In this document: piece after piece, positions 7,970-63,113 of the stretch
Layout: every line of letters starts with the position of its first letter
How positions within the stretch are numbered: the first letter of the stretch is position 1
NCBI GenBank assembly: GCA_031213475.1
Contig: JARUPZ010000009.1
Span: forward strand, 4,306,601 to 4,370,600
Direction: 5' to 3'
Source of the DNA: Nereocystis luetkeana
Taxonomy: Eukaryota > Sar > Phaeophyceae > Laminariales > Laminariaceae
Length of the DNA: 64,000 nucleotides
Translations under genes and position numbers: made by a program
Notes under the pieces: model-generated
Database searches by the model: none
What the model saw: only the letters and a program-made list of their open reading frames with translations
Told to the model about the DNA's origin: nothing

Positions 7970-8156
7970 TTTTTTTTGTTTTTTTTCGGCGATAGGAGGA
8001 AGCGTATATGATGTGCGTATTGCATGGCGTATGCACATAAACCGTGAGAGATAAATATACCAGGTATTTATTAAAGAACCGAGACGCAACGAAGTTTCGC
8101 AGTCCCTGCAAAAATGAAACTACCGATAATATCAACCCATTACCAACTCGACAAGT

Positions 8157-8263
8157 TTAACCGTTTTAAATCCGCAGTCTCGTTCTGGGGACAATTAGGG
8201 ACTAATTACTTGGAATGTGAGTGCCTTGTCCCCAAAACGGGACAGGATTTCTAAAGGGGTTAA
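8157..8263. mobile_element. MITE2 copy a (hairpin element)
   Basis: Inverted ends resembling AACCCCTTTAGAAxxGCAGTCCCGTTxTGGGGAC and its complement enclose a short AT-rich centre. Here GCAGTCTCGTTCTGGGGAC pairs with GTCCCCAAAACGGGACAGG. This is one of five dispersed copies in the window. No transposase is encoded; a non-autonomous DNA element is the likely origin. Confidence 0.7.
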
Positions 8264-8451
8264 GAGGAGGACGATTGTTTCATTATTTCGGTTGGATTGG
8301 CATATTTAGACTTCTTCTTTACTCGCAGGTGAATTTACGTAGTTACGAACCGCCCGAGTACTGGTATGTATGCCCATTCGTGACATGCTCCTATTTATAT
8401 TAGTGATGTACGCAACATTGAAATATATACCAGGTATTTGTCATTTCCCAA

Positions 8452-8660
8452 GTGGGTAGGCACAATTCGATGCGAGTCGACGAGGGAAGCAAAGGCTGAA
8501 ATCTTCTCGCGATAAAAATGTAGGCACGTACCGTAGCGGGAAGGGGGGAGAAGAGCCTGCTATGTGACCCCGGATCTGAGTTACGAGTAGGAAGGAGAGA
8601 GAGAAGAAGATGTGAGAAGATAATGAATGGGATGAGAAAAAAAAAAAAAAAAAAAAAAAA
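8452..8660 (+). mobile_element. SINE-A copy 2, 5'-truncated
   Basis: Begins at GTGGGTAGGCACAATTCGAT, the middle of the SINE-A body, and runs to a poly-A tail of about 24 (8637-8660). The tRNA-like head is missing. Copy 4 is truncated within a few bases of the same point. This fits incomplete reverse transcription, or a separate short element (for example a partner LINE 3' end). Confidence 0.8.
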
Positions 8661-8724
8661 CAGATACTCCCTCTCTTGAATTCTGCAGCTTCACATTCTG
8701 TCTCCTTCATATGCCCTGTGCTTG

Positions 8725-9727: not shown

Positions 9728-10052
9728 ATTTATTTTTATTTTCATCTTTCGATTTGTCTTCTTTGTTTTAGTTTTCCCTCTGATTGTTGTTTCCTTTCGT
9801 TTCTCTATGTCATATATTGTGTATGTCGTGCCTCTCGTATCCAATAATAGTATCATGACATGGCATTGGATTGCCCACTACTACCTGTGCTTACCGCATA
9901 CCTGATACCTGGTACATGGCAACGTAGTATCTCTGTATCTCTGTCGCGTAGTTTTATGACCGTAGAACTATCTTTTTAGATAGAAGAATCGGCACGGACA
10001 CAGGTTGTGCTGGATGTCGACGGGTAGGAAGAACGGTTTGATGCGAAGAAGA
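9728..10052 (-). repeat. Rep-E copy 1
   Basis: Read on the minus strand it matches 30275-30575: a head with ACCGTTCTTCCTACCCGTCG and CATCCAGCACAACC, then CCGTGCCGATTCTTC, GGTCATAAAACTACG, CAATCCAATGCCATGTCATG, ACGAGAGGCACGACATACAC and an A-rich tail. A palindrome TACCTGGTA (9906) is present here but absent at the same place in the copy at 30.4 kb. A-rich end and dispersed copies suggest a retroposon; no promoter box was recognised. Confidence 0.65.
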
Positions 10053-11950: not shown

Positions 11951-12260
11951 ATGAACAAACAATTAAAATGCAGTACCTGGTATGGAAGATTGATGAGGAA
12001 ATTTGGGGTTTGTGGAGAGGGTCCCATAAAAAACGGGGATGGCTTGAAATGGAAACGAAGAAGACTATTGACTGCAGCTGTTTGTGGCTATCTGCTCGTG
12101 GGTGTAGACGAGCGGGGGTCTGGCACTGTGGACGAGGTCGGCGAGTTGCGAGAAGAAGACGAAAAAATCATGACGCGTGCATCGTACTTGGGAAGTCGTG
12201 GCGGGGCTTCGAGTTCGTCGATAATTGAAGCTTCAACCGGCTTGGGGAGAAACCCCTGCT
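11951..12260. other. Gene-free stretch
   Basis: A TACCTGGTA palindrome is at 11974. A continuous frame (11936-12367) crosses a MITE and is not considered coding. Nothing else was recognised. Confidence 0.3.
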
Positions 12261-12454: not shown

Positions 12455-13560
12455 CATGAAAAATTGCCAGGCGCTTACCCCGAAGAAGCGCATGCGACCG
12501 TGACCGCGCGCGTGCTGGAAAAACCTCTGCATGCAGTGGAAACACTGAGTCGCGCAAGATAAAAACAAACAACGATCTGCGTGTTGGCCCCTTTGTATAC
12601 ACCAGGTATACATAACATACCCGATATAGATATAAAATGTCTATATCGAGTTTGTTATCTGAGTTAATGTACGGGATACATACAAAATATTTTCCAAGAC
12701 TTCGAATACCACTCGCTGTTACCTGGTATGTTCGAGTAGGACCTGGTGTACAATGTTACCAAACCCTTTGCACGAACTCGTACAACCAGATGCTCAGCCC
12801 AGATGCCCAGGTCTTTGGTTCTCGTTGTGGTCGCGATTTTTATATTCAATCTACATGTCATATACTCCGTATATATGTATATATTCCGGAGGAGCCTGCG
12901 CAACAGGAGTTACAACTGCAGTCCTCAACTTGTTTAGTAGTAGGCAAACATGCATGATTCGTTGGCGTGTCGTGATTGGTCTATGTATAGCCCAGACGTG
13001 AACGTTCCTGGTTTCTTCTCGGAGATCTCTCTCGTGCATGTCTCGTATTTCTGCGTCGCGATCGTAGAACCGGCGAGCTCGAAAGGGGCACCTATTTTTT
13101 CGCGCGCTCTAAAAAGTGGAAACATCGTCCCACCACCAGTATACTAGGGTGTGACGTCGAGCGCAAGGCACAAACGAGCAATATGGAAGGCAGCTTGGTA
13201 TTACCCGGAGAAAATATCCGGGGGGCTACCGTAAATCACCCCCATTCTCCATTATTAAATCCAACCTGGGCCAGCGTTCCTGTTTTCTCTGTGTCCACAG
13301 CGGTAGTAGAGTACAGGACACCAACTATTAATAAGAAACAGGACAATAAAAAAACAGGCTGAGATTTTTTAAAATGGGAAAGACGCGAGGCTGGGCCTCC
13401 GCCGCAAAATATGAAAGGCCTATTGCCCACCTGAGGCGAAAGCCCGATGACCCTTCGGATCACGCTGCTGCCTGCGCCTGGTGGTCGCGAGTAACATTTT
13501 TCAGCTTTTCAGGGACGATTAATTAAAGTATCAACTTTAACCCCGCACAGCAGTGTACTT
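12455..13560. other. Gene-free stretch
   Basis: Two copies of the TACCWGGTA-type palindrome (12601 in 8-bp form, 12720) occur here; no coding region or other repeat was recognised. Confidence 0.3.
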
Positions 13561-13584
13561 GTATACTTCGAAGTATACCAGGTA
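13561..13584. repeat. 18-bp perfect palindrome overlapping a TACCAGGTA site
   Basis: GTATACTTCGAAGTATAC (13561-13578) is a perfect palindrome, directly fused to TACCAGGTA (13576-13584). Its core TACTTCGAAGTA recurs at 28363, and related CGAAGTAT words at 19216 and 29954. Confidence 0.8.
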
Positions 13585-14499: not shown

Positions 14500-15060
14500 C
14501 AGCCAATAGCGGCATTCATATGAGTGAACATCTTTTCAAAACCATAATAAGAAATCCGCTCCATTCTGTCCGGCGAATATAGGAAACAGGATCAACAAGA
14601 AAAATGCTTAGAAACATTAACGTGTAGAAACCCAGACTGAGCTCATATCGCTGTTTCTTACTAGGTGTCCTGCACTTTAGGCGCCATTGCGTCGATGAAA
14701 ATACGCTCAGGTCGGCTCGAACAAAGGAAGAAAAAATGGGTTGGAAACACAGCTCGCCAGTGGGACTAACTCTAAATCCTACCTGGTACGCATTAGTCTT
14801 AGATCAGACCGAAAAAAAAAAGACATTCGAGTCTGGACAAAAAAATGACGATTCTGAACACCTGGCGCCCACCGTTTCAAGTGTCCTACGCTACTCTCAT
14901 GTAATACCAGGCCTGTACCAGTTAACTATACTGTTGTCGTCTATCCGGGCGTAGTCGTAGCTTCTACAATGTGTGTAAAGCGGCTGCGGCAGTCGCTCTC
15001 GCTACTCCTTCGTCCTCAAAACATCGCAGAAGTACATCGTGTGTTCGTTGTATGAATGTA
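14500..15060. other. Gene-free stretch
   Basis: One palindrome (14780) and a near match at 14904 are present; nothing else was recognised. Confidence 0.3.
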
Positions 15061-15381
15061 TACCAGGTACGAGAACACCATCAGTAGTATATTACCAGGT
15101 ATAGGTTGTGTGTGCCTTCGGTCTTCTATTCTGCACGTCGGGAGTTGACCAAGGTACCCACCGCCATCGAGTTTCTCTCTGTTTTTTTGTGCTGAACAGC
15201 CCCCTTTGCAGAGTGGAGACCTACGTTTTATTATTTCGAGTAGTGGTACCGGTATTTGTGTTTACATCAGTACTGCTGTACCAGGTACGATATACCAGGT
15301 ACCTGGCCAAACGAAAATCAAAGGCAAAATAAAAAATCGAAGATAGCAGGCATTTGGTGTGTGCTTCTACACTACCTGGTA
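15061..15381. repeat. Cluster of five TACCWGGTA palindromes
   Basis: Cores at 15061, 15093, 15279, 15293 and 15373, with a further partial (TACCTGG) overlapping the fourth. The chance expectation for 320 bp is about 0.0025. Flanking bases are usually purine on the left and pyrimidine on the right, making an 11-bp palindrome RTACCWGGTAY. A protein-binding site cluster or a replication-born repeat are both possible. Confidence 0.85.
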
Positions 15382-15389: not shown

Positions 15390-17880
15390 ACACTAGCACC
15401 GTATGGTCACGTTGGGCGACTACTGGTGTCACAACGCGATTTCAGGCAGCCTTTCCTGATCCGAGGTGACTCTCGTTCGCGTGCGCGAATTCTCTCATCA
15501 CAAACGCGTCTCATCCATTTGAACTCCCAGCCAGTGCGAGTAATACATGATGGGCCCATGTGAAACCAACTATCTTGCTTCCAAACGCAGGAGTTCGGTT
15601 GCTTTCCTTCAGACGTACCAGGTATGCACCAGTAGTACTGGAGCGGTCTAGCAAAATGTTACTCACAAGAGACCCATCAGCCTGAAATACCCGAAAGAAA
15701 GCAATCAAGCGAACTGTCAAGCCTACACCGTAGTCAGTGCCCAAGGTTTGTGAATGTTTGACCCCTTCCTGTGGCTGACCTGGGCCCTAGCATGTGCCTG
15801 ACGTGGGCCGAGACACTATTCAATGGGCACCACTGGATAAGTAGTTTTCTGGGAGGATTAAAAATATCAAAGCGCGACATAAGAAAAAAAATCTTTTGGC
15901 GCGCGTCCAGAATAGGACAGTGGGCCTAATATCGATTTCAGGGTTCTTCGTGTGAGAGGGCCGGTGCTACCGCTACTGTGTATCATACATAACTGCCCCA
16001 TGGAAAAAAACGCTCTACATGCTCAGCCCAACCCCCCCCTCGAAAAAACAGCAGGTTGACACGTTTCTCTCGCTTCCCCACAACCTTTTGCCGCGCCAGC
16101 AGGAACAACGTGACCTCCTACAAGAGTCCAACCCCCCACCTGGCCAGGGTTTTTCTCTGCCCTCTCGTCCCATACAGCGTTCGAGCCATGCCATGGAAGG
16201 CGTAGATAGGGTGGGGGCGCCTTCCGCTCTACGTCTGTGGAGCTGTCCACCACGGAGGGCTTACGGCCTCGAGCTATAGGTACTGCAGTGAGTAGCGGTC
16301 TGGCGAGCGTGGAGCTGGTCGTTGGCTTCGACATGCGGCACAATATGTCTCCTTACCCTGCGCCTCCCCTCTGCTGGAGATGGCGCCTTATAGTATACGC
16401 AAAAGCCCACGGTTTTTCCGCGGCTGGAACAATATCCCTGAGCGGGTAGATTCATTCAGGTGTTTGTGGAGCGCAGCCTTTCTGTACTCGCATCAGAAAT
16501 CTAGCCCGTGGGCTTCTGTAGTAAACCAGCGCATTAGTATGTCGCCGGTACTACTGCTGTAAGCATAGATAGCAGGCAACCATGTGTAGCAACCGTGCTG
16601 TGACTTGTCTGAAAACCGTTCCTAGCATTATGACCTCATCCAAGAGTTGGGAAAGGTGTGGCTGCGGTTCCACCCGCAGGTGTAGCCCAGTTGTAGCTCG
16701 ATAGTACATACAGTGCGTGCAGTGAACTGCTGTTGTAGATGGCGACGACAGCGTCGGGGGTGGGTGGGTGGGTGGGAGGGGGGGAGTGTTATCTTAGGCA
16801 TGAACCTAGCTACACAATATAGAGCTTCCGTTAGGTACTGGCCTGTCGATGCTGCCATTTATCGCCTCCGTCCGGCTTGTATCTTGGATTGTATCTGCGG
16901 TGTCGCCTGCGGCCCCCTGGTCGAGGGGGACGATAGTGAGAGGCTGCAGTGGGCACGGCGTCGCGAAATTGGCTGTGCGTCGAGCGAGAGCGGGCGGGTG
17001 GGCGGGCGGGGGAGCGAGCCGGTGTTAACGAGTACCTGGTACGGGCTTTGTGTTGAGGGTGCCACTGCTCTCGCCTTGAGATAGCTCAGATGTTAGTTTA
17101 GCAGAGTAGTCGAGGGAGCGCGTACGTGATGTTTGCTCTGAGACCCATGTTGTGCTGCTCACGTGTCGTTTTGTGTATTGTATCGGTCATGTCGGTCGCC
17201 GAAGTTCTTGAGTTGTGGCGTTTGTCACCTGCACAGTCGACCACGGATATCTACGCTCGGCCTGCTATTCGTTGCCGACTTTCTGGATCTATTAGTCGCT
17301 GATGCGAGACGTTCAATAGGAGTGATCCCGAAACCAACGTTAAAAAGCTCTATTCGTTGTACTGTGCTCACGCGTCTACCCCCCCCCCCCCCGGACTCAG
17401 GGAAGATTCGAGGACTCCGTCGATTTTGCAAAACGTCTTCACGCTTCCCGCTTTTGGAGAAAAATAAAAGAATGGAGCTGGGGTCATGTAGGTATGTATT
17501 TATGCAGGGCTGGGGAAGGGTGAAGATGCACGTTCACGTGTCTGCCGAATAATTTGATTAAAAAGCAACTGGTGATCGGGACTTCGCCGGGCCTTCCAAA
17601 CAACGGGTCTTGATGGTTTGGGATGAGCCCTGCTGGGCTGCTTTTTGGGTTAATAGGGCCACCATTGATTTAAAGGAGCCCATGAACCAGCTCAAAGCCG
17701 CCAAGGCGGTTGTTTCTGTGTGGCAGCTGTTTTTTTGGGAGGTGCCGATATTTCACCTTTTGCCGTGACATGCTCGTTGTTGGCCCCAGGATCGACGCGA
17801 AACCGTTCCAGCGTACAGCTGGACTCGCCCGTAGACGTGATGCTAAGTGTGTACTGTAATTGGTCAAGGTTGTTTGATCC
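15390..17880. other. Gene-free stretch
   Basis: Palindromes occur at 15616 and 17033, a GGGT-type minisatellite at 16756-16786 and a C14 run near 17380-17393. Several frames of 80-130 codons exist but none resembles a known protein or shows convincing coding composition. Confidence 0.3.
16756..16786 (+). repeat. (GGGT)n-like G-rich simple repeat
   Basis: A run of GGGTGGGTGGGTGGGTGGGA followed by G7. The pattern meets the usual G-quadruplex rule (four or more G3 tracts with short loops). No gene is adjacent. Confidence 0.8.
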
Positions 17881-20969: not shown

Positions 20970-21350
20970 ACTACTCAGAATTTGACATGTTGCTTGCAGT
21001 CCTAAAATGGAAAATGAACGAGAGAGCTGATCCAGGGGGGCTTGTCCTCTGGCTTCTTTTGCCCGACCTGCCACCGCCCGCACTCTTTTTGTTTTCCCCC
21101 GAGCTTGTCATGCCGAATACTTTTCTTTCATCTTTCATGTCTTGGGGGCACTATACCTTGTTGTTTTTCGCTTGCCATCCGACAAAGTGCAGCACGAGCT
21201 TCAACGTTGATCACTCAATACATTCCTAGAAGAAGATACCCCCCAGACTAAAGGAAACGTATCGACAAGGTCTTAAATATGCCGCAAGTTTCCACCATGT
21301 TTCATCGCACAACCGCCGCGGTATCAACAATAGTATACGGGTAACGGGTA
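20970..21350. other. Gene-free stretch
   Basis: Nothing recognised apart from a TACCTGGTA palindrome at 21349. Confidence 0.3.
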
Positions 21351-21361
21351 CCTGGTACATG

Positions 21362-21459: not shown

Positions 21460-23790
21460 GGACGGCGCTGACTATTTCAGCTTGTCTGAGGATGGATCCC
21501 TTACTATGTACCCGAAAAATATTGCGCGGTTTGCTCTGGTGGTCTACACGGTGTTTGTCCCGTATTGGCTCCGAAGATTTAGCATGTTGGATGTGCTGCT
21601 GTGACAGTCTCGTCGAGCATCCTTTTTTTGCAGTATCGACAAATATTTAGGCCCGCCATCTTTACACACAACACAACAACCCAAGGGCCCTTACCGACCG
21701 AGAGTCAGTCAGGTCTTCGCTCCCCCAGCACACACCATCGATCAAGTCAGGCCCTCTTTCTTTCTCTCAATTTTGTGAAACTTTCTGAACTAAAAAGGTT
21801 GAGTGTTACTTCAATCTCACTCCTACCACACCGATACCCTTAACTCGTGCTTTCTCACGTGCGTACACGCCCCCCAACGTTCGAAGGGTCTGTCCTCTGT
21901 CCCCCCTACCAAGACCCGCACTTCCTTCAATTCCCCGCGAACATGGCCCTGTGTCGAATATTTTCCGTGGTTAATGTCTTTGGTAGCAGCACACCTATTT
22001 GACTGACTTTGGTTGGGGCACTGATGAGCCATTGCGGCACACCCGGGGTATATACATGATAACCCCTTACAGAAGTCTTAGCCACCGGTCGGCTTGGAGC
22101 AGAAGCTTCCCGAGGCCACCAGTCAGTTATCGAGCATGAAACATGAGTTTCAGGCGTTGATTGTGCAGGCCCGGTTTTTCGATCGAACTATATGTACTCT
22201 GGTTCATCATCAGAAGAAGAGCTGCTTTGCACGTAATGTTTCGACTGCATGGTCGGTGTATTCGTGCAGTTGAGCGGGCAACGACACCGGTTGCTGATGT
22301 ACACGCTTGGGTCATGTGGTTAGTTGTGTTGGCAAGATCAACGGTGGTGAAAGATACCATAACCTCGCAGTGAAATGTCGCCGCAAAGGGGGCCACCGTT
22401 CCAGCAGAATTTCACCCCATAATAATAAGCGATTTTTGAGCAAGCTTAGGGATAGAATAGAGTCGGTAGGCCCAGCAGTAACTAGTTGAAGAGGATGTAT
22501 CGATTGCAATGGCTTCTCACTGCACAGCGATGGCTTCTCACTACACACGCTGCAACGTCAGAGTTTGTGCGTTCATTTTGGTTCTAGGATGAGCAGTGAG
22601 AGACGACGACAGCGGTTTTTGACGAATTTTCAATACCTAACCGTTGAACTGTTCGCGCGATAACTCCGTTTCGGCGGGTGGTGCTGCTATTCGTCATGAG
22701 ACACCATGGTCTAGTACGGAATACCTGGTACGCTTGCGGAGCTCATGCGCACACCAAGCGACCTCCGTGTCCCAACATATTCACTCATGGGTGCCTTGTG
22801 GCGTATCGTGAGGTCCTTCGTACGAACCCGGCCTTACCTCGCTTCCGACGCGACGATCATTTCCATCTATCTGCAAAAATTGTATGAGAATGCACAGTTA
22901 TTATCACACATCCCCGCCCCGTACGGCCACGGGTGCCTCTAGCCGAGACGGCCGGTGTGATCTTAACCCCATCTGCTGGACCGTCGCCTGCGTGTCGCCA
23001 CACTATCACTAACTCCAAATGCCACCTCTCTAAGAACGGGGCTCACCAAACTATGAACTGCGCTGGAATGCATCGGATCGACGGCAATAATAACAATAAA
23101 AGCATCTACGTTGTCAGTAGGCTCCTGAGCCTTCACCGACCACACAAGGAATAGGTGCGTGTTGGGTTAGACGAGGCATCCTAACCCGAATGGGCGATTG
23201 CCGCCCGAGATGCGCTATTTCCCTCAGCCCCGGCGTTTGTCAAGGCGAGCAGGTTAAATAGTCCCCTGCGCACGACAATGTTAACAACGTGAAACGTCTA
23301 CTGCACCAGGTATACGACGAGACAGGTGGGTGGCACGACCAGTCGTTCTGCTTCCGGCCTCAACTATGTCGCGCTAGGCCCATCCAAAAATCCGCATTGG
23401 TTCGGGTGAACGAGTCTTTTCCGAAAAAGTCAAATTAGGACCGAAACCTTGGAACCACCTTTCGCCAACGGTTCAATATTCTCTCGTTTTACTGATCTTC
23501 TCCTTATAATAAACGGCCGTTCGAAACAAGTGTCAGATGAGAGGTCTGTCTCCAAAAAAAGGATATAAAAACCATATATTTCAGAACAATATTGTCGTTT
23601 CCGTTGACCACTGAACGTATTGGGATCGGTTGTTTGACCGACCTGCTGAGTGTACGTAGCAAGAAGAGGTCTTCTCTGAAGAAACGAGGAGTCGCCATAT
23701 ATATCTATGGTCGTTTCGTAGTCGTCTTCGTGCCCCTACTACCGTTCTTGTCCTTATCGTCCGCCGTCGGGGCACAAGTGGTCGCCCTCC
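21460..23790. other. Gene-free stretch
   Basis: Palindromes occur at 22722 and, in 8-bp form, at 23305. Around 21640-21960 is a CT/CA-rich stretch that resembles an untranslated leader, but no downstream coding frame follows. A 20-bp phrase, ATGGCTTCTCACT, is doubled at 22510 and 22533. Nothing else was recognised. Confidence 0.3.
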
Positions 23791-25699: not shown

Positions 25700-28600
25700 T
25701 GCCTCAAAATACACAAGACGGAAAAAGCGCACACAAGATAAAACCAATGTGCAAAACTGAACTAACATGGCCGCGGGTATATCCTCTCAACTATAACATA
25801 GAAGAGTACCCCCGTTCCCACCACTAAACAACTCGTGGCTGCTGACTACAGCGGATGCTGTCTGAAGTGCTGCCTGCACCGTACGAAACGCACGGTAGTC
25901 GTGAAAACGAAAGAGGAACACACCTGCCTGCTATCTCGAGTGCTGTCAGAGTGAAGACTCGCGGATATGCAGTGAAAAAAGGAGCAATCGAACCTTACTA
26001 CCACAAGAAAATATCAACGATCGCCATCTCTTCCTGGACTGTCTGACACAAAAAGGTGCAGCACAGTTATGATACCACGTCCCTGATAATTGCGTAGGAT
26101 ATTCCCCATGAAGGGTACAAGTATACAACTCGTTAAACTACAAAGACCAGTGACGAGTACCGGTAGATACTATTCTGCCTCGTGAAGAACAATACCAGGA
26201 AAAAACAAACTATGACTGCTTCTCTCGTGATGATAGTGTGCGCGCAGATCATGGGTCTCCATGCACCGTCTCCTGCCGCTCTTCATGACCGCCTCGTCGC
26301 CTTGGACCAATCCACCCGCTCCTTTGCGCGTGTACTCGTTGCCATTCCCTTCCAGTCGTTTCCTTTTCTCCGTCATCCTGAAAAACAAAATGCTCCTCGC
26401 ACTTGCGGTTCTGATCTGGGAAATAAAAATTCTCGCGCAGGGGGAGGTCAATCCGTCTCTTCCCCGCACGTCGACGCTCAGTCTCCCTCCTCCCTCGTCG
26501 TCGAATCCAGCCTCCTACCGGCGCAATAGACTGTGCCGTAGTGTGGCCTGTGGTGGGGCCTGCCTCCGCGCACGGACACCCCGATTGAGCATTGCTGCTC
26601 AGCCGCAGCTGCCTCAAAAAGACGCGCGAATCGTAGGTCTCCGTGCCTGACGCACCACGTACGACCCAACTCTACTGTCACCTGAGCCTCGCGGCCACAG
26701 GCAGCAGCAAGAAGGTATCACTCCTTGAGGGTGAGTCCGGCCTTACACCCGCCAGAAAGACCTACCCCACTCGCTATAATAAGCCTGATAGGGCATGCCT
26801 CGCAGCATTCCTTGCCGAGGCAGCGAGGGGAACGGATGTATATATACAACTATGGTTGTAACAGATTATCGCTGCAGGTGTCCGGGATTTTGGAGCTCGG
26901 TAGGAGGAGACACTCGCTGAATCGTCTGGAGTGGTACCAGCCTCGGTTTCGGTGTCCTTTGGAACGTGCGATATGAGGATGGGAGAGTTTTTTCCTCTCT
27001 GGGAGTAGTAGCACCTTGCCGTGCTGCAAAAGAGATTGACAAGCGGAGTTCAATCCTATCTTTCCGCTGGGCCAGTGCGCAAGCGGACAAATACCCGGCA
27101 GCAGCTGGCCCACTCGTAATAATATCATGCGCAATTAGGCGAACGATGTGTAACTTCGCTGCCACGAAAAAAACGTTGGCTCCTTGAATGCGGACAACAG
27201 CGAGACGTTTCGAAACGAACACTTCCTTCGACGACAGGGTGAAAAAAACACCCTGACGTATTGACGTCAGAGTACCGCCGCAAAGTGGCGGTGAGAGGCT
27301 AGACGTCTGAGTACAGGCAGTGCTGATCGAAACGAGTTTGACGGTATTCAACTCTGAGGCGCCCGGACTGATACGAACGCACTTGCCCGAGACAGATATG
27401 TATCGCAGTATGTATCGCAGCAGAAGAACGTAAAAGCCACCACTAAGTTTGCCACGATCGACGGCAGCACCGAGCGCGCATCACAGCTCCTTGGACGTTG
27501 GCGTAATCGAGTGCGAATATTATTTGGATACTGCGGTTTATTCTGCTTTCCGGCATCACAATTATCGTGTGTCGCCGGGCTGAGACAATTTATAACCCAT
27601 AGCTACTTGTTCTTGAGCACGCTAACAGCCCTGAACGGCGGCTATTCGAACACGGTGTATGTCAATACCTCGTACACTCCCGATAGCCCTTTGTTATTGC
27701 TGAAATTACAGTGCATTCATACAAGGAAAGCTTTGTACGGAGTTTGCTTGTCTCCAAACACGGTGTTCCCGGCATTGTCTTTCTCGACACCCCGAAAACA
27801 TATCGAAACGTGAGACAAAAAAATCAGAGCGCTGTGATCACGGGACGATTTAAGAGAAGAAGGTTTACGCTTGCCTTTCTTTTATTGGCCTAGGCAGGTG
27901 GGGAGGGACTCGGAGGGCTCTCTTTGAACAAGTGATCAAGGATTATAAAAACAAAATGGGCAAACAAGAGTGTTTTGCTCTAAAATCATCCTGTCGTCAC
28001 AACGGTCCGGTTGTTTTTCGGGCTGATCTTGTTTGATGTGATCTAGCGAACAATCACTGCCACAGGCACCCTCGGGGTATCCCCTATTAAAGATGTGAGA
28101 CGTGGGTACCAGGGTGCGCCCCCGAGTACACCTCAAATACCCAAGATATTGATATACGGGTACCTCCGAAGTGCGAGTCCCTACCAAGCACGCCCTTCAC
28201 GGCTGCGTTGGTTGCGCTGCGCATTATAGACTACCAGGTAGGTATAGAAATTTAGTACACTACGTGTGCTGTGTTAATTTCATACAGCCTGATGTAATAC
28301 CGTAACACACAACATTGCTACTGTTGTGCTAAATACTACGAGTGCGAGTAGAACCTGAAGGTATACTTCGAAGTACTCGTTTCATACTTAGTACTAATAA
28401 AATGTCATCCTCTGCAGTATGTACCGCTGGTTATATCCTGAATTCACCCTAAACAAAATGTGCTCGTAACCGCAACACGTACATTGCGATACTGCTTCCG
28501 AGCAGCAGCTACCAGGTATGTATGCAGCGCGGCTGCATTACAACAGTAAGTAGCGCAAGCTGTAGACAGTCGTGTGTAGTGTGCGTTTGCAGCGCCGCTC

Positions 28601-30579: not shown

Positions 30580-31160
30580 AATCTAGGAGAAACAATCTGT
30601 CGTGCCACCCCCCCCGCAGGCGAGGTGGCCAACACTTGAAAACAAACGAGCTGGAAAAAAAAGAAAGAAACAAAAAATATACCAGGTATATATTAAGAAA
30701 AAACACCACTGCTTGTAAACAGAGTAAGACAAAGAACCAAGGAAAAAAGTAACAAACAAGGAAAAAAAAGGGGGAAATAACAGGCAGCCCAAAGCCCAAA
30801 GCACCTTCCAGGTGGCGGCAGCAGTTAGCGGTACGATTAGTATAGCCCAGGTTCTCCCTGCTAATACGCCTGGCACCTTGCTAGCCAGACTGCCGTCTCC
30901 GCCCTGCGTTCGTCAACTATGCCCAGCCCCTTGGCGTCAGACAATACGAAACGAGCAGAGCAGGTTCGTCATCCAACCACGCCACACGGCTCCTTCAGTA
31001 CGGCTTATCAATTAGAAAAGGAAGAGAAAAAAGAATAAGAAAATCACGGAGAGTCAGCGCAAGAAAGAAAAAAAACAAAACAAGAAGAGAAGACAAGGGA
31101 AGACCACGTTCGCGCCAGCTGCACCAGTTGGTAGCACTACTAGTAGTATGGTCATGTTCT
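30580..31160. other. Gene-free stretch, possible LINE 3' untranslated region
   Basis: It lies downstream (minus strand) of the LINE coding relic, and contains A/T-rich runs and a palindrome at 30680. It may hold that LINE's 3' end, but no tail could be fixed. Confidence 0.3.
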
Positions 31161-32178: not shown

Positions 32179-32287
32179 TATTAGGGGGGACCATAGTTAA
32201 CAGGACCTATGGTATACATAAAAACCTATATGTTTAACTAATTTTACTAACAATATTTGGTCCTGTTAACTATGGGCCCCCGTAATA
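32179..32287 (+). mobile_element. MITE1 copy c, intact
   Basis: Left end TATTAGGGGGGACCATAGTT, right end AACTATGGGCCCCCGTAATA; the terminal inverted repeat extends through TTAACAGGACC on both sides. The centre is TA-rich. A TACCTGGTA palindrome starts three bases beyond the right end (32290). Confidence 0.8.
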
Positions 32288-32289: not shown

Positions 32290-32586
32290 TACCTGGTATG
32301 TATGTATATATATGTCGAAACAACTAGCTATTAATAGAGAATTATTAAAATCTGATTGATGGTACTTACACGCTTTCAATACAACACCCTGTGTAAAATC
32401 AGAGTAGGAAATATGCTGCTCGCTGTCGTAGTACTGCTGGTCCATTGGACTGTGCTTCAGCCACTCGGCCCAAAATATAAGGCGGGGGAGAGTCGTTTAC
32501 GGTGCCATGCAGCGGAATTCATTTCGGCTGCACTGACCCCTATTATAGATGCTTGTTTCCTCGTCGATCTCCGTTCTTCACTAAAT
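32290..32586. other. Gene-free stretch
   Basis: A palindrome is at 32290; nothing else was recognised. Confidence 0.3.
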
Positions 32587-33149: not shown

Positions 33150-33770
33150 GCGGGCACAATGCAGCGCAAGCTCCTATTGATACCAGGTATATAGTAAAAA
33201 AAGCCTATGAGTAAAACTGCTGACCAGACATAAATAAATACATCTGCGTGAGTCTTGGGAATCAACATCTTATCATCAGATCGGAGTACTATGATGGGTT
33301 CGGGGTCGCTTACAAGTCTAAGTTCGTGTTGTCTGCACCAATAACATCCGTGTTCCCTACCCACCCTTACACCAACCAGTTGCTGAGTACCAGGTACCAG
33401 GTACCTGGTAGTGTATACCCCACATTGATCTTGATTGTTATATCGCTATAGATACACAGAAAAAAATTTGTGGTCGAACACTGTGCTTGCCGCCGTGACA
33501 CAAATAAATGTTAACCAAAATACTCGTTAACGAAGCAAGGTACACCCGCAAAAAATAATACAACGTGGAATACTCAGTAGGAAAACACGACATATTATTA
33601 TATATAGTGTATAAATATAATACCAGGAACCAGGCAAGATATATGCTACCCAAGGAAGTATTAACCCAGAAATACACCACCTACCTCCTAATAATCCTAC
33701 AAAACGAATCCCGGAACGATACTCTAAGCAATAATACTATTAATAATAGGGCTGTCTAGAAAATGACGCA
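33150..33770. other. Gene-free stretch with a triple palindrome
   Basis: TACCAGGTA at 33181, then three overlapping cores at 33388, 33395 and 33402 (TACCAGGTACCAGGTACC, continuing TGGTA). AT-rich otherwise. Confidence 0.4.
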
Positions 33771-37287: not shown

Positions 37288-37289
37288 AG

Positions 37290-39003: not shown

Positions 39004-39261
39004 CTCTATTGGTGTGGTATTGATTCCATCGGGTACTGGTGATCGTTAGCCATGGCCAGTACCTTAGTAAAATTCGTGTTAATCCCAACGGGTGTCGATG
39101 ATCGTTAGCCATGATTGACACTTTAGTGACCTTCCTTCGGACTGTGTTATTTTATTTTGAGATTTCAGGGTGTTATCATTAAAGGCGTTGGATGCATAGG
39201 TTTTATTTTTGATATTTTGACCGGACGAGAGTTATCAGGACTGTGAAACGAGCAGGGGGAA

Positions 39262-39615
39262 TGTGGGATTTGCTCGTACCAAAGTCTGATTTTCTGATTG
39301 TACTGAATTGTGTGATTCTTGTAAATGTAATATATCTACGGAGATTGCGGCGGGATTAGTGTTTCCCCGAGGAGTTGCATAAAATTGTGTTTGACCTGCT
39401 TTCAGGGGTCTTATAGAGTCTAGGGGAACGTGGCCCCCTTGCTCTCAGTCCACCAGTACACTAAAAATAATTGATACCTTTCTACTTCTTCTACACACCG
39501 CCTTATGGCGCGAATGCTCCCGATCGACCGCTCTCCGTGAGCAAGGCTCTCCGCCCCAGGGCAAGCCTCACCCGCGCATCACCCAAGCGCACCCGGTGCT
39601 CGAATTGATCCCTTA
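39262..39615 (+). repeat. Right LTR of the copia-type element
   Basis: 354 bp, uninterrupted, followed directly by TGTGA, the target duplication. It serves as the reference for the split left LTR. Confidence 0.92.
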
Positions 39616-40856: not shown

Positions 40857-40982
40857 ATATAACCGTTACATGGTACATGGTACACGGAACATGGTACCAG
40901 GTATTCCGCACAGTTGGGTCCTATCCGTGTACTCGTACCGCCTGGAATCATAATGTTTTATTTGCGATACTGGTACGCAGGC

Positions 40983-42274: not shown

Positions 42275-42383
42275 TATTACGGGGGACCCTAGTTAACAGG
42301 ACCTATGGTATACATAAAAACCAATATATTTAACCATTTTTACCAACAATATTTGGTCCTGTTAACTATGGCCCCCCGTAATA
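42275..42383 (+). mobile_element. MITE1 copy g, intact
   Basis: 109 bp, TATTACGGGGGACCCTAGTT to AACTATGGCCCCCCGTAATA, with terminal inverted repeats of about 30 bases reaching TTAACAGGACC. It gives the clearest view of the element's ends and of TA at both borders. Confidence 0.85.
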
Positions 42384-44750: not shown

Positions 44751-44972
44751 AAATACACGTGTTTGGGACTACTGTCGAAAAGACAACTTTCGGAATTGCT
44801 ACACCACTATTCGACCAGACTGCCGGATATTCCGGAGTCGCGACGCTCACAAACGAATAGTGGGGTCGCCGAAGAGCCTTTTCGGGATCAGGCCTTATCA
44901 TATACCAGGTAGCGATTAACATATGCGGGGGAGAAGCTTATCTGGAATCGCCGCTTCATCGTCTACCTGGTA

Positions 44973-45199: not shown

Positions 45200-45730
45200 C
45201 ATCGTGGGGTCGCATCCACTCGATAACTAGATGTATTCGCTTTGTAGTACGTAGCACCACACGCCTCGTATGTATGTGAGGGTGACAGGAACATGGATCA
45301 GGTGCTATTAAGAGGCCATTTGTGCAAGATTTACTTTTTAGTAGCCTCAAATGTCTTCTTTGTACGGAGGGTGGGGCGGCGACGTGGTGGGTTGCTTCGT
45401 AGTTATTATCTTGGTCCACGAACTGACCATTGAAATACTGTATATCCTTGAGATAGATGCAGTTTATGAGTTTGTCGCAGAAAGACGTTATTGTCTCTCT
45501 ACAAACCAACCTGGCTTCAGCCGTCCAAGTGCCCTTGGGGCGGTACAGCCCCATGACTACGTATGCGGAATGTGTGTTCAGGAGCAAAGTATGGTATATC
45601 TACTGTTGTTCGGCTGGTATTCTTTCAGAAGCAATAACTCACGGTCAGTAGCGGCGCGTAGTAGTTAGCTTAGCGTACAAAGTAATATCGTATACCAGGT
45701 ACGCATTATGGGATCCGCCCATGTTTCGAG
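45200..45730. other. Stretch with an unassigned minus-strand frame
   Basis: On the minus strand a frame of up to 151 codons (45587-45132, no ATG at its start) reads YVVMGLYRPKGTWTAEARLV and DIQYFNGQFVDQDNNYEATH, which looks more protein-like than most frames here. No family was recognised. A palindrome is at 45693. Confidence 0.3.
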
Positions 45731-48500: not shown

Positions 48501-48549
48501 AGAGAAGGAATCGAAGTACAACCCCTTACATCGAACTGCGCCTACCTAT

Positions 48550-48590
48550 TCTATTCCTAACCCTATTCCTAACCCTAACCCTAAGAATCC
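48550..48590 (-). repeat. Interstitial telomere-like (CCCTAA)n tract
   Basis: CTATTCCTAACCCTATTCCT followed by AACCCTAACCCTAAG: about six CCTA-type units, three of them perfect CCCTAA. TTAGGG is the common eukaryotic telomere unit. So short a tract inside a sequence is usually a repaired break or ancient fusion scar. Confidence 0.7.
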
Positions 48591-51247: not shown

Positions 51248-51387
51248 ATATATATCTCCAGGATTGAAGAATCGGCACGGTCTCTATTAATAGTTATGCT
51301 GGATGTCGACGGGCTGAAAGAACCGTTCAAAGTGAAGAACAACAACACCTTTAATGTTAACAATACACACCACACACGGTATCGAAA

Positions 51388-51730
51388 GTCCCCGGTGGCT
51401 TGGTAGGTAGTCCGCGTGCCTATCAAGATCAATTTCGTGGGTTCAAGTCTCACTGTGTGCATTCTCGTATATAGGTGTTTTTTCTAGCAAGAAAATATAA
51501 TGATTAGCGGAAAGCGCGAGAAAATTAGCTACATTCGCGGAAAATCGACGAGCAGTGGGAATGCTGAGCCCTATGCGCGACAAAAACTTTACCAGGTATG
51601 CACGTACCGGGGGGGCGAAGGGATGGCACTTTTGTCCACGGCTTGTCCAGAAGCTCGTTGAGGATAAAAACTCCCACGAGTAAGGCCGGAAAGTAAAGTG
51701 AATCAGATTTTGAAAAAAAACAAAAAAAAG
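51388..51730 (+). mobile_element. SINE-B copy 3
   Basis: Head CCCCGGTGGCTTGGTAGGTA, then GTGGGTTCAAGTCTCACTGT, body GATTAGCGGAAAGCGCGAGA and ACGAGCAGTGGGAATGCTGA, and an A-rich end at about 51710-51729. A TACCAGGTA palindrome (51590) lies inside it where the other two copies have AAAAGGCACGC or AAAGGTACGC. Confidence 0.75.
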
Positions 51731-51734: not shown

Positions 51735-52545
51735 GTTGGGTTTTCATACTTAAACTAGTACTTGTATTTTCTTCTCGATGCCCCCTGTACTTCCCTCTAG
51801 AGTTTTGGAGGGTATATGAGTGCGAGGAGTTTTTTTTTATATAATATATATACCTGGTAATGCAACATCATTTTCAGTGCTAGAAAGCGGGTGTTCTTTA
51901 TATTTCAGCTCTTCCTGCCAGCCGATATCCTACTCGCCCAGCGTCCGTGCCGGCTGTTTGATCGAAGAGGGAGATATGCATACTCTGTACGGTGGTCACA
52001 AAACTACGAAACCAAGCCGAGATACCATCAATCAGACTAATGTATATTGTTATCCACTAAGCAGAGCAGGCAAACCAATGCGATGCCATCGTTCTAGGTA
52101 CGATAGTCATGTCAAAATGATTCGACTGTTATATCCTAGCATGTGTGTATGTATGCGTTGAACTACAGGAATATCTAAAGAACAAACAAAACAAACATGG
52201 AAACATTGTTTTTGTATAACATTGTTGTGCATACATATATAATACTCGTACTTGTATCCCTTCGAAGCAGATGTGGCAAACAACACCATAATATACACAT
52301 AAAATCAGGTAAATAAAACAACTACCTAACTACAACCATTCAGCAGAAACAGAGCAAATACGGAAAACGAAAGGAACTGACAGACAGGTAAACAGACGCA
52401 AAGCAACACCTGACTATCTATGTGCTACTGCTGTACAGGCGCAACACGTACCAGGTAGGCATACTTATTTAGCAGGGCATCCTGTTTCGTTGGCGGGGAT
52501 GTACACGTTATACGCAATATTGGTGTCTCATACCAGGTATGCGTA
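51735..52545. other. Gene-free stretch with a Rep-E fragment
   Basis: 51985-52110 matches the middle of Rep-E (GGTGGTCACAAAACTACG, CAATGCGATGCCATCGTTCT). Palindromes are at 51851, 52449 and 52531. Nothing else was recognised. Confidence 0.4.
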
Positions 52546-52914: not shown

Positions 52915-53245
52915 GGAGCAAAAAGGAGACTATTAATAATAGCAGACAAAAACCTAACACAGAAGATGACGCGGAGCAAAAAAAAAAAAACAATAAAAGA
53001 AGCAGATAGAAAAACGCATACAAGGCGTACCATACCAGGTACCTGGTACATTGTTGCGTGTCTCTCTTTTAATAGTCAGCATTATTAAGAGAATATAGGA
53101 AACGGAATGTCTACCACGGGTTCCGTGGAAGGAAGTCGAACCCACGTTTCACCCCCCCCGTGTTCTACAACCGTAGCCTCTGCTGTGCGTACTTTTGCAT
53201 GCAGCAGTGAAGAAGGAGCCTAACTCTTCTTGCATTCTGTCGGCC
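52915..53245. other. Gene-free stretch
   Basis: Overlapping palindromes are at 53033 and 53040. Nothing else was recognised. Confidence 0.3.
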
Positions 53246-58057: not shown

Positions 58058-58660
58058 CGTATTTTTCTTCTCCGCCTTCTCGGCCGCTGTGAGCGAAGCC
58101 CAGAATTCTGATTTTATCTTCAACTTTGTCCGGGACTCCGGACGCCTTCGCTTCCCTGCCTTCGTCATTGCTTTTTCGACAGCTTTCCTCCACGGTCGCG
58201 CGAGCCGGCCTCCGACGGGTGGTTTCCAGTGCGCGCGTCTCGGAATCTCGCGGCACCGACGATCGCGGCGACCCCGAACTTGAGGGATGTTTGCTGGGAA
58301 AAGGAGACACGGACGTTCTGCGGTCCTGGAAATTTGTTTAGGTGTTGATGCTCCGCGAAGAGCTTCTTGTGACAGGCTCCATCTTACAGTAGTAGTTTTT
58401 TTCTCTCCGAGGTTCGATCTCTCGGTCTTGCTGATGCTACCGCTTTCTACCGACTGCCTTGCTTTGCGGACCGCCGCCATCGGCCTGTTCGAACCCCTGG
58501 GTCCCGCACTACTCGGTGGCTGTGCCTTCCCTTTGCCCCTCTCTCTTCGCCGGATGACTACACACGCCTTCTCGGGGTATGTATCGCGCCGTTCTTGGTA
58601 CCAGATCGTTGCATACCCCGGTGATTTTGCTTTTTTGGTGTTTTTGTTAATAAAATTTTG
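58010..58660 (-). pseudogene. Duplicated basic, Ser/Arg-rich frame, copy 1 (frame shifted)
   Basis: Minus strand, starting at GTG rather than ATG: VVIRRRERGKGKAQPPS, ESGSISKTERSNLGEKK and ALRGASTPKQISRT match copy 2 at 60478-60990. The second half of the match (SGSPRSSVPRDSETRALETT, then RRRPARATVEES) is in another minus-strand frame, so a frameshift has occurred near 58290. The plus strand of the same block is also conserved and open in parts, so the coding strand is not certain. No known domain. Confidence 0.35.
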
Positions 58661-58679
58661 ATAACTCAGCACGTCTTCT

Positions 58680-59080
58680 GGTTTCGCCGGTTGAACGGAA
58701 TGAAGGTTGTTGGGAAGTATGAATTCGGCCGAGTGTTGTCAGTTCGATAAGAAAGAACAACCAATCACGTCGGAGGGCATCGTACAAGTGGCGGTACACG
58801 CTCGAACTTTCCACTCCTACCTCTGAGTGAGGCGCATTGGAATACCAGTACTATTAATAACAACGAACTACAGCAGCAGCAGTAGAGTAGTTCAGAGGTG
58901 TTCTACTGTACTTCGAATATGTACGTACAAAGCTTCGTTTTTGCCGGTCGAATTGAATGAAGGCTGTAACATGTTGGCAAGTCGGCCGGGTGCTGTAAGT
59001 TCGATAAGAAAAAACGACGAATCGCATCGGAGGATTTGCTACACAGCAGACGTTTTTCACTTTGAGAAAAAAAATCAAAT
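58680..59080 (+). repeat. About 250-bp sub-repeats inside the 2.4-kb unit
   Basis: The phrase CGGCCGAGTGTTGTCAGTTC followed by GATAAGAAA, CATCGGAGG, GGTACACGCTCGAA and a TACTGCTG or ACAGCAGCAG tract occurs near 58728 and 58980 in unit 1. It recurs near 61052 and 61313 in unit 2. The doubling therefore predates the 2.4-kb duplication. Confidence 0.6.
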
Positions 59081-59599
59081 CCAGTCCAGATGCAAGGTCT
59101 ATCTTTACTAGTAAATAAATGGGAGATACGGACCCGCTTTAAAGATACGATCCTTCGTTCCAGGTACTATATAATATATATGATGTTCGGCTGGGTACGA
59201 TTCCCTGTTGAAAAGCGCGTCCACTTGTTTCGGCGAGCACTACTGGAGATAATCGAGGGTTGGATGCTGCGTGCTCAGACTGCAAGTACTCAACTCGCAG
59301 TATGTCGGAGTTTTGTGCTGCTGTACGTATACTCCTGCGTGTGCTGTATGTAGTACTATAATATAATATCCGAAATGAATATTTCGATTTTCACGCTTTG
59401 AGAATACTGCCCATGTCGGCACTACTTTGCGGTGGCTCTGTATTGCCGATCGATATTATTAGGTATCAGGTATCAGGTGTTGGATACTGTTCACACTCGC
59501 AGCATCTCAACTACTGCCTGACCTCAGCATTGAGTGCGATCATGCGCATACAATATGCGTCCTGTTCTCCCAGTAATTTGGGCGTATGTATACTGCAAG

Positions 59600-59790
59600 T
59601 TGTTGTCTTCTTCTTCTGCGATGACCTACGTACCGCTGCTGCTGTTGTGCTGCTGCTGGTCTCACGGCTGGGTCTGCACAGCAGCAGCTGCAGCAACTGA
59701 CCGCAGCAGCAGCGTTGCCTGCTACTACTCCTGCTGCTGGTGCTGCTGTTGTTGCTAAGATTTTGCATGTTGTGCTGCTGCTGCTGCTGC
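59600..59790 (+). repeat. (CTG)n-rich tract
   Basis: GCTGCTGCTGTTGTGCTGCT, GCAGCAGCAG and CTGCTGCTGGTGCTGCTGTT words fill this part of unit 1. Much of it is missing from unit 2, so it expanded or contracted after the duplication. Confidence 0.7.
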
Positions 59791-60477
59791 TATCGCTTCC
59801 ATGTGCGGGAGAGACCCTCTCGTCTGCACAACAAGCGCCGTTGGAAGTAGGTACAGCTCGCCGATAGGGGTGTGATGTCGGCGTGGGTTGGGTACTTGGC
59901 TACTGGACAGAAATAGGGCAGCAATGCTACTATCGTAAACAACACCATCAACGTAATCTCTGTTCTGAGAGTATAAGAGAGACCTCTCACACCTGAGCTG
60001 ATTTCTGCCCCCGCCAGCAGTAACTGGATTCCAAAAAAAATATCGTGGATTTCCCGGCCTAAAATCATACCAGGTAGACGGTTCTGAGTTTTGGGCTTCA
60101 GAGTAGTAGTAGCGGATGGCTGAAGAAGACAGCAAAAATAACGTCCCAAAAAAATGCTACCCTGATATAGAAGTTGGTCTATAAGTGAGACAGATACAAG
60201 AACTGAGAACTGACACTAGGCATTTCCTCTTCTTCCCTGCACCACTTGACATTGTCCTGATCCCGTTCGCAGCAAGATCGAATGGTGTACTTATTATGTC
60301 AACTTGCCTAAACCTGATCACACGACTTTTGGCACTGGGGAATATTTTCCTATCTGGAGCATGGCTGCCGGCAGGCACCCATGCGGAGCCTTTGTACATA
60401 TATATCTCTATATATAAACAATCCGTAGGGACGCCTCAGAGAGAAGCATTCGCTTCCGATTCCTCCTTGAATTTAGG

Positions 60478-60990
60478 CTAGGACTCCTGACGTCTTTGTT
60501 TCACTTCCCTGCCTTCGTGCTTGCGTTTTCGACCGCTTTGCTCGAGGGTCGCGCTCGCCGGGCTCCGACGGGTGTTCTCCCGTGCGCGCGTCTCAGAGAC
60601 TCGCGCCGTCGACGAGCGCGGCGACCCCGAACTCGGAGGATCTTCTCTGGGGCGAGGAGACGCGGAGGCTTTATTTTCTTCGGTCCTGGAGATTTGTCTC
60701 GCTGTTGTTGCTCCACGAAGAGATTTTTGCAACAGACTCGATGATAGCTTTTTTTTCTCTCCGAAGTTTGATCCCTCGGCCTTGCTGATGCTTCCACTTT
60801 CTCCAGACTCCGTTGCTTTGCGGGCCACCATCGCCCTGTTCAACTCTCTCGGTGTTCCCTTACTCGGTGGCTGCCTTCCCTTGCCCCTCTCTCTTCGCGG
60901 GTCGACTACACGTGCCCTCTCGGGGTATCGCGCCGTTCTTGCTACCAGATCGTTGGAATTCCCGGTAATTTGATGGTCACAATTCGGCAC
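60478..60990 (-). CDS. Duplicated basic, Ser/Arg-rich frame, copy 2 (open)
   Basis: Minus strand, 170 codons from a GTG; the first ATG gives about 117 residues, so an upstream exon is likely if this is real. It reads RYPERARVVDPRRERGKGRQ, ESGSISKAEGSNFGEKK, ATTARQISRTEEN, SSGSPRSSTARVSETRAREN and ends EGREVKQRRQES. Composition suggests a disordered nucleic-acid-binding or scaffold protein. Conservation with copy 1 at about 60 percent, including in-frame length changes, supports past coding. The opposite strand has a 150-codon frame (60521-60973) that is equally conserved, so the strand remains open. Confidence 0.35.
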   Translation of the reverse strand: MPNCDHQITGNSNDLVARTARYPERARVVDPRRERGKGRQPPSKGTPRELNRAMVARKATESGESGSISKAEGSNFGEKKKLSSSLLQKSLRGATTARQISRTEENKASASPRPREDPPSSGSPRSSTARVSETRARENTRRSPASATLEQSGRKRKHEGREVKQRRQES

Positions 60991-63113
60991 GTCATTTTTT
61001 TCCCCGGTGGAATGGAATGAAGGTTGTTGGAGAGTACCTGGTATGAATTTGGCCGAGTGTTGGGAGTTTTATTAGAAAAACCGATCAATCACATCGGAGT
61101 ACATCATCCAAGGTGGTCGTACATGCTCGAATTATATACTGCTGCTGGAAGGTCTGGTGTCCAGTGGTGGATTGAAATACGAGCACTACTACAGCAGCAA
61201 CAGTACAGTCTTTCAGAGGCGTTTTAATTCGAATATACGTACAAAGCTATGATTTCGCCGGTCGAATTGAATTGAGGTTATTTATTGCAAACTAATTTCT
61301 GTAGTATGAATTCGGCCGAGTGATGAGTTCGATAAGAAAACCCGACCTCGATCGCATCGAAGGATATCAGACGTGGTCCTGCATGCTCGGACTGTCTACT
61401 GCTGCAAGGTCTGATCTCTGTAGGGGCATGGAGATACGAGTACTACCTACAGCAGCACTAAAGTAAATCAGAGGTGTGCTACTTCGAGTATGCACAAAGC
61501 CACAATGAATATCCACTATTAATATCATAACAAGTACGCCCGATAAGCTTGTCTGACGTATCACGCAGCTTCTAAAGTTGAGCTCCAAACACCCAATCGG
61601 TTGTACGCACACCAGAGGTTATTCGCTTTAAAAACAGCGTAATGCAAGGTACCCACTCAAGAAATGGGAGATCAGGCCCCGCTTTAGCATACGATCCTTT
61701 GAACCAGGTACCGGTATACTGTATGAAGATAAGATGTTCGCCTTACTATTTTCGGATGAAAAACACGTCAAGTTATTTCCGCGAGCACTACTAGTACTCG
61801 AGGTAATAATCGAGGGTTGGTTCGAGACTGTTTGCTCCCACTGCGAGTACTCGCAGTATATCGGGGTCTGTGCTGCTGCTGTGGATACCGTGCAGCGTGT
61901 GCTTTACGTATATCCAACCTGAATGATCCGGGGTCCACACCGAGAATTATGCCCATGTAGTGCAAGGATCGGTTGCCAGCTTGTTGTTCTGTTTTGCCGA
62001 TCGGGATAAGGTATCAGATGTTCAATACCTCTCGTACTCGGAGCATCTCAGCTTAAATACTGAAATTGCTGCCTGTAGTCATAGTTGAGTAATTCATACT
62101 GGTATACAGAGTCAGCGTATACTTTTCCTGATGCTGCATCTGATTCTGTACTGTTGCCGAGCTGGAGTGGTACTACTTACTGTTGTTTGTGGTGGTGCAG
62201 CTACTTCTGCTATCGCCCGCTGCATTCATGTGAAACGAGGGTCCATCTCTCCTGCACAGGCACCGTTGGCAGTAGTAGCTACAACAGCTCGCCTTAGATA
62301 GGTGTGATGCTTCGGCGTGGGTATGGGGTACTTGGCAGCTAGCTGGGCAAATAAAGGGTTGCAGTACTCTATTAAAAGTACACAAAATCAAATTAATTTC
62401 ACTTCTGAGAAATACGACAAACCTCTCGGAACTCAGCTGCTGTCTGCCCCCTCCAGAAACTGAGACCTAAAGTACCGATGATTCCCCGCCCCATAATAGA
62501 CGGTTCTGAATTTTTGGCTTCAGAGATCGCTGAAAAATAACGTCAAAAAAAAAATGACATCAAAGTTGATCTATATATATTAATGCGAGTGAGATAAATA
62601 CAAAACCTGAGAACTGAAACTCGACATTGCCTTTTTCCTGCACCACTTGGCATTGATTGGCCTGATCCTGTTCGTACTAGAATCGAACATTGCATTTACG
62701 TTGCGTAAATAAAGTAATCACGAAATGACACTGAGGTATGTTTTCCTATCCGGCGCATGGATGGGTCCCTGCCGGCATGCGGATTTGTTGTGTATATATA
62801 TATCTTCCTGGTCGACAACAAGTTTAGGAAACAATATCCGAATTTGAAGGGAGGGACACTGCACGGACATTGCAGGCGACGTGTTCGCTCTCAGATGTTG
62901 ACGTGTACTAGGTACGAGGTACATGGTTATCACAGGAGTTTTGTATGTTGTAGTATGTGTAAGCTCATGCGTTGGAGGGAGCCAGCAAAAAAGACATAAT
63001 CGTGACCGTTGCCAGCCGGTATGACGACACCGCTCTATCGCACGTACTTTTCGTAATTATTCCAAAAACATTGTGGAATTATTGGCACCAAGAATGCGAT
63101 CGTTTTTCCCCAG

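Follow-up and report, generated by a model that had tools for sequence, protein, structure and literature searches.

TACCWGGTA, an over-abundant palindrome of the Nereocystis luetkeana genome, is mostly a 7-bp insertion at TA and probably a transposon excision scar

Described footprints and the abundance of TACCWGGTA

Members of the Tc1/mariner superfamily of DNA transposons show palindromic target preferences centred on TA, and the footprint left by Sleeping Beauty is TAC(A/T)GTA. An extreme genome-wide excess of a short palindrome is known from HIP1 of cyanobacteria, which is not known to be made by insertion at TA, and TA-bounded excision by a domesticated transposase is known from the ends of ciliate internal eliminated sequences, where a single TA is left. 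Here we describe TACCWGGTA, a word in extreme excess both in one window of 64,000 nucleotides of the brown alga Nereocystis luetkeana (C9:4306601-4370600; contig JARUPZ010000009.1 of assembly GCA_031213475.1) and throughout its genome of 465,085,209 bases in 1987 contigs. The word resembles HIP1 in its abundance, but its origin by insertion is shown by empty sites; it resembles the ciliate ends in its TA bounds, but 7 bp remain. With the footprints of Tc1/mariner elements (Osmar5, Stowaway, Mos1, Sleeping Beauty and ZB) it shares a duplicated TA, what appear to be a few terminal bases between the TAs, and small variation at the joint, whereas it differs from them in its five-base insert, in numbering about 180,000 copies in a single genome, in that no donor was found, and in the further TAs at 7 and 14 bp.

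Tc1/mariner footprints are usually 2 to 4 bp long (PMC7913693); those of Osmar5 and Stowaway consist of 1- to 4-bp end fragments inside the TA duplication, with longer summed fragments, TACTCC...AGTA, also published (PMC1925063); and the strand cleavages of Mos1 are staggered by 3 bp (PMC5481204), which on our reading would leave the element's outermost bases attached to the flank. As far as the available texts go, footprint scars have been described at single loci or in donor plasmids (PMC7913693, PMC9976928, PMC1925063, and PMC3660474). Among the matches listed for published work on footprints, brown-alga elements, and kelp footprints there was no report of such a scar; those listed for TACCAGGTA and TACCTGGTA all seemed unrelated by title and the start of the abstract; and the words "footprint" and "excision" are absent from the available part of PMC12477816. 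Excision footprints as such are already known, and in the literature searched we found no description of a genome-wide population of single-word scars that outnumbers an unseen element and has a five-base insert and a target phased at 7 bp.

Exact matching found 37 copies of TACCWGGTA in the window (23 A-centred and 14 T-centred on the plus strand), compared with 0.61 expected for both centres under an order-2 Markov model and 0.71 under order 3. The runners-up among odd 9-mer palindrome classes had 8 copies each, and among 9-mers seen at least 10 times in the window only ATATATATA had a higher z-score (43.9 versus 43.1). Simulated windows held at most 2 copies in forty order-2 runs and at most 4 in forty order-4 runs. 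Genome-wide the word occurred 182,395 times, far above the count of the reversed control word (1,744), an excess of about 105-fold that amounts to one copy per 2.55 kb. Additionally, 20 ten-kb stretches chosen by place, of which three adjoin the window and two contain 2,500 masked bases, held 68 copies (0 to 10 per stretch). The excess is thus genome-wide. An earlier note, made from the letters of the window alone, had listed 36 starts, every one of which was exact; a single copy, at 7423, had been overlooked. Neither outcome that it had named as refuting the excess occurred: the genome-wide count lies far above its control, and the flanks of the 37 window sites differ, unlike those of parts of one longer element.

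Insertion at TA, target preference and decay

Related copies of dispersed repeats were compared in a pool that joined the window to the 20 stretches and the search loci and counted overlaps once (275.8 kb, later 334.4 kb). This pool is not fully random: L001-L008 were chosen for the word, L029-L048 were chosen for a transposase match, and three stretches lie beside the window. In the alignments, relatives without the word usually showed a bare TA opposite TA-CCWGG-TA. At L012:7563 (gttacaTACCAGGTAgtactc) all seven aligned relatives were 7 bp shorter, and the place read TA in five, CA in one, and TG in one. One relative was likewise 7 bp shorter for the site at window 61035..61043 (a bare TA in the relative at window 58635-58818), as were two relatives for L021:7419 and one for L030:2269, a site inside a miniature inverted-repeat transposable element (MITE). 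L026 carries a 14-bp double unit where its relative L007 has a single TA. The clearest cases of a net gain of 7 bp ending in TA, which is an insertion at TA with the TA duplicated, as in a Tc1/mariner footprint, were L012, window 61035, L021, and, as a double, L026.

At 5 of the 10 TACCWGGTA sites that could be scored, most relatives lacked exactly 7 bp, versus 4 of 173 other TAN5TA sites and none of 1108 positions taken at every 60th base; only 5 of those 1108 arbitrary positions had even one relative that was 7 bp shorter. In a survey of 4- to 16-bp insertions that was blind to motif, TACCWGGTA appeared twice among 32 seven-base insertions, the double unit TACCAGGTACCTGGTA was the sole 14-base insertion, and a second word, TATTAATA, appeared once among 26 six-base insertions; the overall proportion of TA-bounded insertions was unremarkable. 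These results show that TACCWGGTA is mostly a 7-bp insertion at TA, demonstrated at several sites, and that the scars differ between copies of a repeat. A common mode of origin for all copies is likely. The earlier note had held that the copies are not parts of a known dispersed repeat; some do sit in dispersed repeats, but mostly as insertions specific to one copy.

The base just outside the TA was a pyrimidine in 200 of 252 half-sites, giving a palindromic R-TA-Y, and a further TA stood 7 bp out in 77 and 14 bp out in 50 of the 252, versus 21.5 and 20.6 per 252 at RTAY generally. The flanks, in which the earlier note had seen no longer shared sequence, are thus not featureless. The preference (RTAY with TA at 7 and 14 bp) agrees with the Tc1/mariner superfamily in being palindromic and TA-centred; for the 7-bp spacing of flanking TAs we know of no precedent there. 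Distances between neighbouring copies stood out at 7 bp (8 times) and 14 bp (3 times), and scars thus stack in 7-bp steps. We considered whether the TAs at 7 bp are decayed older scars. Only 8 of 61 five-base spacers matched CCWGG at four of five bases (the share among all TAN5TA is 6.1%), too few to account for the excess, and in L030 the TA 7 bp out was already there in the MITE relative without the insertion. As the spacers are mostly unlike CCWGG and L030 agrees, the preference lies largely in the target and not in decayed older scars.

Forms with one mismatch numbered 114, versus about 67 expected, beside 124 intact copies in the pool (hand-summed), and the excess was richest in transitions and present at every half-site position. 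These variants look like neutral decay, with a mean divergence of roughly 4% per base, so that the copies are neither all new nor ancient. If the mutation rate is near 1e-9 per generation, which we assume, a gain of about one scar every few hundred generations would be enough, and a handful of element copies could supply such a rate.

Probable origin of TACCWGGTA

We consider TACCWGGTA to be, with good probability, the excision footprint of a TA-specific cut-and-paste transposon, Tc1/mariner-like, whose ends begin with CC. What we infer from the scars is the donor itself, with its ends and transposase, as well as the chemistry of the overhangs and the rate. A DNA transposon would insert at TA, duplicate it, and later exit by cut-and-paste; both of its ends would begin 5'-CC, probably CCA, and excision would leave a few terminal bases on each flank, the joining of which would yield TA-CC-W-GG-TA. 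The central W could stem from an A.A mismatch between two CCA overhangs, repaired to A or T (CCAGG or CCTGG), while retention of the full overhang would give CCATGG and loss of the third base CCGG. A CCAGG overhang of five bases, paired except for an A.A mismatch at its centre, would serve equally well. An element of low copy number, long active, would write one scar per hop, and, if the element readily inserts again at a scar and the TAs around it, scars would come to be stacked in 7-bp steps.

The letters at the joint are consistent with this scheme. Between TAs five bases apart, CCWGG was far above every other word, and five bases formed the main insert class, with four and six as minor ones. 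Among minor joints with the same outer letters, TACCGGTA was found 11 times (about 4.3 expected), TACCATGGTA 3 times (about 0.4), and, with L024 excluded, TACCAGGGTA 6 times (about 0.8). CCATGG was seen 3 times, CCTAGG never, and CCGG 11 times against about 4.3 expected, all of them small numbers. Forms with a changed centre, TACC[CG]GGTA, were also in excess (9 versus 2.7). Two other words that seemed over-abundant between TAs, TACGAGTA and TACGACTA, were set aside as ordinary repeats, their relatives mostly sharing both without a change of length, and TACCAGTA (17 versus 3.7 in the RTA-TAY context) had one scorable site, with no length change. TACAGTA/TACTGTA between TAs occurred 125 times versus 46 expected in the pooled 334 kb, with two such 5-bp insertions in the motif-blind survey, and may represent scars of CAG-ended elements.

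The second word, TATTAATA, occurred 93,112 times in the genome versus 10,689 for its control. The window holds 14 copies, 10 of them preceded by C, mostly as CTATTAATA (window 11289, 12340, 13326, 29354, 32329, 33738, 51285, 52931, 58852, and 61517). The copy at 51285..51292 (unstranded), of this second scar type, had three relatives that were 6 bp shorter and read TG, not TA, and L023:3784 reads gcagcTATTAATAgctgcg versus gcagcTAgctgcg in two relatives, which is TATTAATA inserted at TA. For this word a candidate donor is visible: a MITE of about 107 bp, short, TA-flanked, with inverted ends, and present in many copies. Five full copies of 105 to 110 bp have TTACGGGGGACCAT-type ends; the left end was preceded by TA in all five, by CTA in four, and by TACTA in three, and TA followed the right end in three of five. 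One unstranded copy with TTACGGGGG-type ends lies in the window at 32179..32287, and its excision would leave TATTAATA; a second lies at 42275..42383 (also unstranded). A boundary search led by TATTA recovered this MITE as a 29-member cluster of ends. Outside the TA of TATTAATA, C, A, and T stood at three bases in 70, 70, and 69 of 130 half-sites, a flank similar to the CTA of the MITE, which ends in TTAC...GTAA. Since TATTAATA contains TT and AA, the outer bases of the MITE (TT…AA), the presumed scar would hold the outer bases of a surviving family. Thus, TATTAATA fits an excision scar of the TTACGGGG MITE and serves as an internal control. The MITE, which we label Stowaway-like, is comparable to the proposed source of TACCWGGTA in its TA targeting and in outer bases that fit a palindromic scar, with tens of thousands of TATTAATA and donors present, but it has other ends, another flank preference (CTA, often TACTA), and a 4-base insert.

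Several observations weigh against excision of a CC-ended element as the source of TACCWGGTA. The 334 kb yielded no element of that kind. When the boundary search that had recovered the MITE was led by TACC instead, its 2601 leads on both strands fell into 42 clusters, all of them inspected, none of which read as a family of element ends, that is, with similarity starting at TA and with inverted partners. Scans for inverted ends also gave no CC-ended element; the CC...GG symmetry of the word itself fits terminal bases. If the ends are conserved, the donor probably numbers, judging from the 334 kb, no more than a few thousand copies. At E 0.001 there were no genome-wide matches to DDE_3 (30 candidates scored) or to Transposase_1 (3 candidates scored, without a working control). 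The DDE_1 profile gave 28 matches genome-wide, none linked to CC ends. These DDE_1 families, which we take to be pogo-type, were rejected as donors where their ends could be read, since the ends begin with CAG or GC and none with CC: CAGTACCGGCC (L039 and L042), CAGTGGGG (the left boundary common to L029 and L031), and GCACCGGGG / GCGCCGGGG (L037). Four further DDE_1 loci, L030, L032, L033, and L035, showed no TA-flanked ends in about 3.5 kb each, and they could still be donors because no ends were found there. A candidate at L017:8130-8510 (ends CCAGACACATAACAAA / CCAGGCACCTACCAAA) was discarded, as its relatives L049 and L050 are similar on both sides and its ends are therefore not element boundaries.

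The scars themselves add to these objections. Their five inserted bases lie outside the 2 to 4 bp reported for the superfamily (PMC7913693). Scorable sites, with relatives aligned well on both sides, were 10 of 126, and three of the ten (window 9906, L026:581, and L026:588) are related places; the majority gaps at the other scorable sites were 0 (two sites), 5, 8, and 13. For window 51590, one of the five 7-bp sites, the relative displayed has no clear TA, and L017 and L050 share a seemingly inherited scar that has an altered form in L049. The double unit shared by L026 and window 9906 also looks inherited. In the strict test of TATTAATA, the four scorable sites had gaps of 6 (one), 0 (two), and -1 (one), the two zero-gap sites being L029 and L031, which are copies of each other.

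A micro-insertion without a donor is the explanation that best survives beside excision, although we consider it unlikely. A nuclease specific for TA, such as a domesticated transposase, would cut, the 3' ends would gain CC(A), and end joining would produce TACCWGGTA. It keeps a place because the donor is unseen, in 334 kb of a genome with one scar per 2.55 kb, and because the insert length and the spacing of the preferred flanking TAs are both 7, a coincidence that the transposon model does not explain. In its fuller form, with no donor left or ever needed, a break-and-join system would write CCWGG and a duplicated TA where TAs recur every 7 bp, one machine setting both target spacing and insert; we regard this, too, as improbable. 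Untemplated tailing should vary more than is seen, given how far CCWGG exceeds other five-base words between TAs, and the TATTAATA scar of the same genome has its visible candidate donor. The earlier note had proposed templated repair or slippage, and of its three suggestions this came closest: the 7-bp empty sites bear out breaking and joining at TA, but slippage fits isolated copies poorly because a bare TA offers no adjacent unit to copy.

Slippage of a 7-bp microsatellite unit, or membership in one longer dispersed repeat, would suit the units stacked at 7 and 14 bp and the excess of TACCTGG not before T (46 versus 28 expected), but TACCAGG not before T shows no such excess (32 versus 38), the window flanks differ, most copies are isolated, and empty sites mostly hold TA alone; we give this very little credence. 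Selection that retains or spreads the word as a binding, methylation, or nuclease site, which the palindrome and its CCWGG centre had suggested, is just as improbable, since scorable copies arise mostly by insertion and not substitution and the variants are a transition-rich decay at all half-site positions. Nothing was found in favour of a binding or methylation site, although the data at hand could not test one directly.

Copies of the word in the window, neighbouring elements and significance

All sites in the window are unstranded exact matches. Single scars lie at 7423..7431, 8058..8066, 8428..8436, 9906..9914 (adjoining a decayed-looking TACCTGA unit; the place of the two stacked units in L026), 11974..11982, 12720..12728, 13576..13584, 14780..14788, 15061..15069, 15093..15101, 15279..15287 (14 bp, or two units, from the next), 15293..15301, 15373..15381, 15616..15624, 17033..17041, 21349..21357, 22722..22730, 28232..28240, 28510..28518, 30680..30688, 32290..32298 (directly outside the TTACGGGG MITE copy), and 33181..33189. 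A triple stacked scar, TACCAGGTACCAGGTACCTGGTA, occupies 33388..33410 (starts 33388, 33395, and 33402) and is followed by single scars at 40895..40903, 44903..44911, 44964..44972, 45693..45701, 51590..51598 (two relatives 7 bp shorter), 51851..51859, 52449..52457, and 52531..52539. A double stacked scar, TACCAGGTACCTGGTA, lies at 53033..53048 (starts 53033 and 53040), and the last single scars are at 60068..60076 and 61035..61043.

Rfam and tRNA scans of the window gave no matches. A young copia-like element at window 35473-39615 has a RVT_2 match and long terminal repeat (LTR) segments that are 100% and 99% identical; as had been stated, it contains no TACCWGGTA, for which chance alone could suffice at one copy per 2.55 kb. 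Its 5' LTR is interrupted by a repeat of about 350 bp (35634-35985), one end of which carries a T run; this repeat recurs near 7632, 8452, 32587, 33771, 50895, and 55442 and is perhaps a short interspersed nuclear element. Interstitial telomere-like CCCTAA repeats occur at window 48545-48583 and at L017:8316-8365. Just downstream of the window, L027:3-1112 and L028:4465-5613 are long open frames for which neither Pfam nor PDB sequences gave a match at E 0.01. In the ten-kb stretch L024, which holds no TACCWGGTA, TACTAC/TACTCC microsatellite is plentiful and has a longer repeated unit. At L013:1-2730 (minus strand), a single open frame encodes both a NADAR domain (E 5e-48) and a RVT_1 reverse transcriptase domain (E 2e-22), to our knowledge an unusual pairing for a retroelement. 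At least three DDE_1 families have TA-flanked ends, namely CAGTACCGGCC (L039, L042, and relatives), CAGTGGGG (L029/L031), and GCACCGGGG (L037/L038); L037 and L038, two overlapping loci on C34, hold nearly identical copies that are oppositely oriented and separated by about 2.8 kb.

If TACCWGGTA is an excision scar, an element too rare to be met in 334 kb has written about 1.26 Mb of legible record into this genome (180,651 excess copies of 7 bp each). If no donor was involved, the roughly 180,000 copies would instead mark the action of a programmed or domesticated transposase. Such scars could date activity, map target choice, measure end joining in a lineage, and reveal extinct elements. They also suggest a cheap general test, in which genomes are scanned for over-abundant TA-X-TA words and empty sites are then sought, and they caution those who search for motifs that the extreme abundance of a palindrome is no proof of a binding site.

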